The position numbers were made by a program, and so were the translations under genes. From the NCBI GenBank assembly GCA_015063385.1, contig SVUG01000016.1:1-38029 (forward strand): 38,029 nucleotides of DNA, written 5' to 3'. The notes beneath the pieces were generated by a model. That model was not told the DNA's origin, ran no database searches, and saw only the letters and a program-made list of their open reading frames with translations. This DNA comes from Oscillospiraceae bacterium. GTDB taxonomy: Bacteria; Bacillota; Clostridia; Oscillospirales; CAG-272. This document shows, piece after piece, positions 271 through 757 of the stretch (positions within the stretch are counted from its first letter, which is position 1; each line of letters opens with the position of its first letter).

Positions 271-317
271 TTTGCTGTAAAACCTATGAAAAAGGGCAAA
301 ATACCCCTATTTGGGCA

Positions 318-360
318 ATAAAAAAGCCATAATCCGATATTTTTCGTATCAATATTATGG
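318..360 (-). terminator. Terminator after structured RNA copy 1 (reverse-strand reading)
   Basis: CCATAAT (327-333) pairs with ATTATGG (354-360) and GATA pairs with TATC inside; reading leftward the hairpin is followed by CTTTTTTATT. This would end a reverse-strand transcript that passes through copy 1. Confidence 0.55.
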
Positions 361-371
361 TTTCTTTATGG

Positions 372-460
372 TGCGGGAAATGTCAGGCGTTTAGAAAACT
401 CTTAATAAGAGTTTTTAGCCTGAAGACCGAAGGCTTGCCTGAGGTCTGTCACGTTTCCTC
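372..460. ncRNA. Structured RNA element, copy 1 of a tandem pair
   Basis: About 86 bases fold into a closed three-way junction. The closing stem is GGGAAA (375-380) with TTTCCT (454-459). Hairpin A pairs TCAGGC (383-388) with GCCTGA (418-423) and AAAACTC (395-401) with GAGTTTT (409-415) around a TTAATAA loop. Hairpin B pairs AGACC (424-428) with GGTCT (443-447), then a tandem GA/GA internal loop, then AGG/CCT around CTTG. Compared with copy 2, paired positions change together (see the finding). On the forward strand the first closing pair is a G-U; on the reverse strand it would be an A-C mismatch, which mildly favours the forward strand. No forward promoter was found, however, and tRNA-Leu lies upstream in the reverse direction. 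The family is not one I can name. Confidence 0.6.
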
Positions 461-463
461 CGA

Positions 464-500
464 CAAAAAAGAGGCTGACCTTTGGTCAACCTTTTTTCTT
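464..500. terminator. Bidirectional terminator between the two RNA copies
   Basis: An interrupted stem AAAAAAGAGG-TGACC / GGTCA-CCTTTTTT with a TTT loop gives a T-run on either strand. It separates copy 1 from copy 2, so each copy is bounded by terminators. Confidence 0.65.
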
Positions 501-502
501 TA

Positions 503-592
503 TGCGGGAAATGTCAGGCGTTTAGAAAACTCTTAATAAGAGTTTTTAGCCTGAAGTCCGAAAGCCTGTCTTGAGGACTGTCACGTTTCCCC
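503..592. ncRNA. Structured RNA element, copy 2 of a tandem pair
   Basis: The first 54 bases are identical to copy 1 (closing-stem 5' strand and all of hairpin A); the rest diverges but keeps the fold. Closing stem is GGGAAA (506-511) with TTTCCC (586-591). Hairpin B pairs AGTCC (555-559) with GGACT (575-579), then the same GA/GA tandem, then AAG (562-564) with CTT (570-572) around CCTGT. The changes relative to copy 1 preserve pairing. A terminator hairpin follows at 601-628, and tRNA-Leu lies immediately beyond it. Confidence 0.6.
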
Positions 593-600
593 CCAAAGCA

Positions 601-628
601 AAAAGCAGACCATTTTGGTCTGCCTTTT
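601..628 (-). terminator. Terminator downstream of tRNA-Leu
   Basis: GCAGACC (605-611) pairs with GGTCTGC (617-623) around a 5-base loop. Read leftward it is followed by CTTTTTG and starts about 10 bases after the tRNA CCA end. It is also followed by T-rich sequence on the forward strand, so it could serve copy 2 in that direction. Confidence 0.7.
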
Positions 629-632
629 GTTT

Positions 633-716
633 TGGTGCGGGAAACGGGACTTGAACCCGTACATCAAAGATACACGCCCCTCAAACGTGCGCGTCTGCCG
701 ATTCCGCCACTCCCGC
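633..716 (-). tRNA. tRNA-Leu, anticodon GAG, CCA end encoded
   Basis: The reverse strand gives acceptor GCGGGAG paired with TTCCCGC, followed by A and an encoded CCA (633-635). The anticodon stem CACGT/GCGTG encloses TTGAGGG, so the anticodon is GAG (Leu, reading CUU/CUC). The long variable arm and the T-arm GGGTTCAAGTCCCG are typical of a class II leucine tRNA. A near-consensus promoter lies at 729-757 and a terminator at 601-628, so it can be an independent unit. Confidence 0.95.
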
Positions 717-728
717 GAACGCTTTATT

Positions 729-757
729 ATTATACTGTATTTATTTTTATTTGTCAA
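729..757 (-). promoter_or_regulatory. Promoter of tRNA-Leu
   Basis: Reverse-strand TTGACA (752-757), a 17-base spacer and TATAAT (729-734): a perfect consensus, with the tRNA 5' end 12 bases beyond the -10 box. That fits strong constitutive tRNA expression. Confidence 0.85.

Follow-up and report, generated by a model that had tools for sequence, protein, structure and literature searches.

Folded non-coding repeat units downstream of a tRNA-Leu gene in a gut member of the Clostridia

The tyrT repeats of Escherichia coli are a long-known oddity. In E. coli tyrV/rttR the 178-bp unit occurs three times, each time with a direct and exact 19-nt repeat of the tRNA-Tyr tail; an exact-word search also identified a 10-nt inverted arm, GGGGAAGGAT, in unit 1 (5/2000 shuffles), and a 19-nt scan of rttR at 11/19 yielded no inverted copy. 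The rttR gene carries an ncRNA annotation, and Rfam assigns its repeats to RF00391, a family listed as Cis-reg. The rtT core is present in 4692 of 5426 E. coli genomes, at a median of 3 places, and the tandem-GA motif occurs in 3/3 RtT units (0/3 in a stricter 3-bp test, the inner stem of RtT being shorter).

In the available parts of two reports, RtT is described as having a tandem GA and a covarying fold (PMC7657543, PMC8250186), and the accessible portion of a third places rtT-like elements before gatY, rbfA and cvpA and counts them among the BIMEs (PMC2965389). Partial texts likewise describe the integron attC as folding into a duplex-like site from the bottom strand only (PMC2727003) and the 3' end of rpsI as the place where a streptococcal IME integrates (PMC5090054).

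Here we analyse a stretch of 38,029 nucleotides (the window) from a gut Clostridia bacterium, in which a leucine tRNA gene lies 5' of folded non-coding repeat units; among the matches listed by a search of mainly open-access literature, none dealt with such arrays in Clostridia. A preliminary description had recognised a tandem pair beside tRNA-Leu, and we confirm it as two copies of ~93 nt at 369-461 and 500-593. Counting on the sequence gives the same 54-base common run (TGCGGG...CTGAAG), and both paired changes named for hairpin B (AGACC/GGTCT to AGTCC/GGACT and AGG/CCT to AAG/CTT) are there, as are the GA/GA loops and the GGAAA/TTTCC stem of the copies. A hairpin scan places terminator-like hairpins on their flanks, as had been proposed, and the notion of a unit-like array is borne out. 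The parts mapped are as follows.

729..757, minus strand: putative tRNA promoter TTGACA-17-TATAAT, 12/12 match, sigma-70-type, called from the consensus only
633..716, minus strand: tRNA-Leu(GAG), the host gene (ARAGORN; RF00005)
598..632, minus strand: terminator Ta, after the tRNA, assigned by place; its hairpin 605-623 scored on the plus strand
500..593, plus strand (better-folding strand): copy 2, folded element of the tRNA-proximal unit; model R1 104.1 bits, the score of a training row, since the R1 alignment includes copy 2
578..592, minus strand: inverted tRNA 3' end of copy 2, from sequence comparison with the tRNA tail
503..511, minus strand: direct tRNA 3' end of copy 2, TTTCCCGCA, without CCA
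464..500, minus strand: terminator Tb, between the copies, from hairpin scan and place
369..461, plus strand: copy 1, folded element of the tRNA-distal unit; model R1 111.1 bits
383..423, plus strand: hairpin A of copy 1 (copy 2: 514-554); helices 2 and 3 of the covariation analysis
424..447, plus strand: hairpin B of copy 1, with tandem GA (copy 2: 555-579); helix 4 of the covariation analysis
446..461, minus strand: inverted tRNA 3' end of copy 1, pairing with 376-382 as stem P1
369..380, minus strand: direct tRNA 3' end of copy 1, TTTCCCGCACCA
320..360, minus strand: terminator Tc, which lies directly 3' of the tRNA in the unit-free relative L059

The intergenic part of the window at 76-264, before a minus-strand gene, also recurs in other genomes (L064, 88.9% over 189 nt; L075, 90.6% over 117 nt).

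In the direction of the tRNA, the array runs tRNA-CCA, Ta, copy 2, Tb, copy 1, Tc, and one unit of ~132 bp consists of a terminator, an inverted tRNA tail, two hairpins and a direct tRNA tail. The copies start 131 nt apart and are 89% identical without gaps over 80 nt. On the tRNA strand each opens with the tRNA 3' end in inverted form (GGAAACGTGAC / GGAAACGTGACAG) and closes with it in direct form, TTTCCCGCACCA in copy 1 and only TTTCCCGCA in copy 2; the length of the exact tail copy differs among units, and copy 2 does not have the CCA. These inverted and direct copies, which the preliminary description had overlooked, link the window array to the tyrT/RtT repeats of E. coli. The paired tails form stem P1 of a three-way fold, completed by hairpin A (AAAAC...GTTTT, with a side loop of the GTTAAG type) and by hairpin B with the tandem GA. 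The gaps between units, ~40 nt, are occupied by terminators; the hairpin of the Tb region scores on both strands and is longer on the minus (tRNA) strand. Among 17 class A units, the class of the window copies, 14 are preceded by a terminator-like hairpin on the host strand (in three of these the scan stopped at the anticodon arm of the tRNA itself and the hairpin behind it was found by eye), seven also have one on the other strand, and for three the scan gave none on the host strand before the unit.

In folding, both strands of the two copies beat shuffled sequences, the plus strand with z-scores of -3.9 and -4.3 versus -2.7 and -2.6 for the minus strand, so the better-folding strand of the window is antisense to the tRNA. 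In an alignment of 17 homologues (A2), 95.3% of the cells pair, compared with at most 49.5% in slid versions, and 13 of the 30 pairs have changed on both sides. Double-change cells number 62, a figure that 500 shuffles, averaging 20.2 (sd 3.4), never reach; the count of further pair types is unremarkable (30 versus 27.9, matched by 87/500 shuffles). These counts are not to be read as probabilities, because the A2 rows are relatives of each other and also supplied the structure. In the four-unit array of genome G062, hairpin B is retained at the same place with wholly different sequences. The claim of a selected RNA fold is thereby upheld as regards a selected single-strand fold, and not as regards its RNA nature.

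The fold is also stranded. The 39 distinct hits of the model contain 96 GT cells, 56 of which come from two conserved pairs, and 13 CA cells. The model strand is the better folder in 35 of these hits, with a mean advantage of 4.05 kcal/mol, in a test that is biased toward that strand as the model was built in this orientation; all 17 A2 rows, which came from a strand-blind search, favour it too. At all 16 strong-hit class A loci with a tRNA on the stretch, the folding strand is opposite to the tRNA; the weak hit L165 is on the tRNA strand. Of 34 strong class A units, 18 have a tandem-GA hairpin (by sequence, the two window copies are among them), as do 16 of 21 units of a second class, E (in one of them elsewhere in the unit), compared with none on the opposite strand of either class, ~1.5% of shuffles and 0/9 class B units. 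We conclude that a selected, stranded single-strand fold of the array is supported. A tRNA-like RNA on the tRNA strand was dropped for class A on account of the GT/CA counts and the folding.

A DNA search of 69 genomes of the genus gave clear hits (E < 1e-4) in eight; at E <= 1 there were 33 genomes, the remainder being short matches. Model R1 added genomes G055 and G062 and had hits in 15 of 295 genomes of the family (8/71 genera; E <= 0.01, the weakest doubtful) and in 19 of 394 genomes of the order (9/168 genera; E <= 0.001). The hosts include the tmRNA gene (L187, inverted copy GCGAGGGGAGTTGAA, direct copy CCCTCGCCTCCACCA), rpsI (L157 and L158, where the gene ahead of the array matches Ribosomal_S9) and tRNA genes for Arg, Leu, Pro, Thr and Ser. 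A complete tRNA or tmRNA is present at nine of the 14 loci L175-L188. An assembly artefact was set aside because the pattern recurs in many genomes, including G573 (3 contigs, 99% complete). At L175, positions 1790-2830, one array terminator holds in its loop an insert of ~1 kb, which has a 238-aa ORF and is bordered by CCGTTGG at both sides.

Class E belongs to other families. Its hairpin A and tandem-GA hairpin lie on the host sense strand at 11/11 loci whose stretch includes a tRNA or tmRNA, and of the 21 units that a class E motif picked out at 14 of 17 loci, 21/21 fold better on that strand. The folded strand is therefore not bound to one direction of transcription, and the occurrence of one core in opposite orientations to the host argues for, without proving, an element acting at the DNA level.

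Rfam agrees with the preliminary statement that no published family is recognisable: at gathering thresholds the window gives tRNA only and the homologous loci tRNA and tmRNA, all other matches being below threshold, and no family covers the units by sequence. RF00391 in particular is absent from the window, the loci and all 69 genus genomes, the E. coli control being positive.

The tails follow the neighbouring gene, reading GGGAAA at tRNA-Leu(GAG) and GGGGAC at tRNA-Leu(CAG); at L018, where the tRNA-Leu(GAG) has TCTCCC, the unit tail is GGGAGA. In 20 chosen pairs of host and array, the own host was the best fit for the direct copy in 17 and for the inverted copy in 10. In the own genome, 40 tRNAs have at least 200 nt downstream; 15 of them are followed by an inverted match of at least 11/16 to their own tail (3.9% for the tails of other tRNAs) and seven by a direct match of at least 12/16 (4.3%), some of the latter being neighbouring tRNAs. 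There are 30 tRNA-Leu(GAG) loci in the genus, six of them too short; among the 24 scored, ten have a direct copy, three an inverted one and 12 either (at most 2/200 shuffles).

Cores of class B, one of the classes named by eye, carry GGTTCGCATACC; the tRNA genes ahead of them are those for fMet, Val, Ser, Cys, Gln, Tyr, Arg and Thr. In the own genome, fold-back units of classes B/C were seen behind other tRNA genes at L086, L105, L110, L122, L119 and L096 and likewise at L117, L090, L091, L111 and L095, with inverted and sometimes direct tails of their own tRNAs. A second unit type of ~200 nt occurs behind tRNA-Leu(GAG) at L016 (~1000-1450), where the units are tandem and also end in CCGTTTCCCGCACCA, and at L044 (~1140-1330). 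Behind tRNA-Leu in other genomes of the genus (L063, L064, L074, L076 and L077) there are strings of short hairpins (ATGAAATC... or GATGATATAC...) unlike the units studied. The end of L010 and the start of L011 (G000 C5 and C14) are contig ends with the same units of tRNA-Leu(CAG); the assembly thus seems to have been broken by the array, and the unit numbers in drafts are lower bounds.

A relative without units is available for comparison. At L059 (G025), the CCA of tRNA-Leu runs straight into the terminator found past both copies in the window, and the window has exactly 264 nt extra between CCA and Tc; the likeness was seen in two stretches, one of 92 nt (window 288-378, 90.2% identity) and one of 162 nt that spans the tRNA (84%). 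L051, L053 and L055 are alike upstream (84-87% over 1,355 nt) and differ right past the CCA, the L055 sequence ending 81 nt on; L009, 78-79% identical upstream over ~345 nt, also continues with a different sequence right past the CCA. Copy 1 is identical at 92 of 93 positions to a unit at another tRNA-Leu locus (G000:C8), compared with 92-93% identity to its neighbour copy. Simple local tandem duplication is disfavoured, because copy 1 is closer to the unit at the other locus; the near-identity across loci and the differences past the CCA would fit units that move, or undergo conversion, from one tRNA end to another.

Searches for an enzyme covered the array flanks and whole genomes. No integrase or recombinase was found among ten chosen neighbours, each the longest ORF on one side of an array: eight have other Pfam domains and two have no Pfam match. 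Outside these ten, L015 carries at 1-345 the tail of a large serine recombinase directly 5' of a class A unit; Pfam gave nothing for this tail, NCBIfam one hit at chance level and PHROG two weak ones, and a 541-aa relative has Resolvase, Recombinase and zinc-ribbon domains. A serine recombinase was rejected as the driver, matches to this tail occurring in only 4/69 genus genomes and being absent from G000. The own genome (88% complete) has one Y1_Tnp transposase, around which the flanks read contain no unit, and no reverse transcriptase (PF00078, RVT_1), which speaks against a reverse transcriptase, group II intron or retron as the agent. Integron integrase (TIGR02249) was found in 0/69 genomes at E 1e-30, where the control was equally silent in all 14 genomes. 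Phage or plasmid origin was also set aside: queries that were exact or short gave no match to phages or viral contigs and two weak matches to plasmids (E 0.8).

The interpretation we prefer, with a probability of roughly 45%, is that the copies belong to an array built up by accretion from mobile non-coding "gene-tail cassettes", the folded strand of which would be acted on in trans. Each ~132-bp unit would have entered after the CCA of the tRNA and before the old terminator, with no damage to the tRNA, and would have brought a terminator, an inverted host 3' end, the two-hairpin core and a direct host 3' end. When one strand folds, stem P1 would rebuild the duplex of the 3' end of the host gene, so an enzyme acting in trans could treat the fold as that end and insert or exchange units, by the logic of the folded integron attC site; a tyrosine recombinase or an HUH transposase acting on hairpins would be candidates. 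The anatomy, the covarying fold, its strandedness, the host-matching direct copies and the 264-nt difference are direct observations behind this interpretation, as are the near-identical units at different loci and the variants at several tRNAs, tmRNA and rpsI; we infer that the fold acts as DNA. Against mobile cassettes speak the failure to find a recombinase beside the arrays, the inverted arm fitting its own host best in only 10/20 pairs, G-U pairs and tandem GA that suit RNA as well as DNA, the variable length of the exact tail, the missing CCA of copy 2 and the phage and viral-contig searches that gave no match; no circle, excised unit or shift in copy number was seen. It is possible, though rather doubtful, that these arrays belong to an integron-like system working on the cell's own tRNA, tmRNA and ribosomal-protein genes, with arms adapting to new hosts and E. 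coli tyrT/RtT as one enterobacterial case; cassettes folded as single-stranded DNA would then enter a host 3' end in any number, and since they carry a terminator the host gene would keep working.

The main rival, which we consider unlikely, is a processed structured RNA that would act as a small RNA or as an attenuator, comparable to the rtT RNA in the tyrT transcript of E. coli, and would be made by read-through from the host in the sense-strand class or by antisense transcription in the window class. The fold with its G-U pairs and tandem GA is typical of RNA, the ncRNA annotation of rttR and its match to RF00391 (Cis-reg) agree with this, and an attenuator role has been proposed for rtT-like elements in the accessible portion of PMC2965389. 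However, the folding strand of the window is antisense to the tRNA, terminators lie between the units, orientation to the host differs between classes A and E, and an RNA as such does not need host-matched tails; nor was a plus-strand promoter above shuffle level found, the sole candidate upstream of the copies matching at 9/12, about as in shuffles.

Fold-back synthesis, in which a polymerase switching template at terminator palindromes or hairpins copies the tail, slippage enlarges the array and the fold is mostly a by-product, would work at any terminator-bearing gene, and the inverted tails do begin right past the terminator, some continuing its palindrome (L060, 16/16 inverted match). We regard it as improbable, as it leaves unexplained the cores common to unrelated loci and families, the compensatory changes in both hairpins and the fixed orientation within each class. 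Least probable of all is that units are kept as insulation, stacked terminators behind strong tRNA promoters with the remainder as tolerated repeat DNA: this fits the host-strand hairpins before 14/17 class A units and the bidirectional terminator activity reported for BIMEs (PMC2965389, available part), but such hairpins were not found by the scan before the other 3/17, and neither the tail copies nor the conserved three-way fold nor the stranded core is needed for insulation.

If, as mobile gene-tail cassettes would require, the folded strand is a substrate of recombination, tRNA genes would be platforms for cassette arrays without coding cargo. The E. coli tyrT oddity becomes a varied class, found in several families of a Clostridia order at the ends of tRNA, tmRNA and rpsI genes. 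Its variety, host-matched tails, shared fold and unit-free site make the purpose and the mover of tRNA-tail repeats testable in many genomes.

Among described systems, integron attC arrays, as far as the available part of PMC2727003 describes them, resemble the window array in growing at one fixed end, in the palindromic site closing each unit and in a strand-specific fold by which a single strand imitates a duplex site; the window units differ in having no cargo gene and in arms that copy the host gene, not R/L boxes. Attachment sites of ICEs, IMEs and prophages share the kinds of host (3' ends of tRNA, tmRNA and rpsI) and a direct 3'-end copy that keeps the gene whole, the far-side direct copy fitting its own host best in 17/20, but the present units are gene-free, measure 130-250 bp and have an extra inverted copy and a conserved fold. 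With REP/BIME-RAYT elements they have in common short, non-coding, palindromic sequences and strand-specific hairpins, whereas the window-type units are tied to host-gene tails and the flanks of the Y1 transposase are without a unit. RtT, the closest known system, is likewise a tandem array downstream of a tRNA gene in which every unit carries the tRNA 3' end, and it has an inverted arm and a covarying fold with a tandem-GA hairpin (in the window class, 18/34 class A units). In contrast to RtT, the window units have no sequence match to RF00391, the Clostridia units carry terminators and use many kinds of host gene, and the window fold is antisense. In sequence the window array is not RtT, and in its design it belongs to the same kind.
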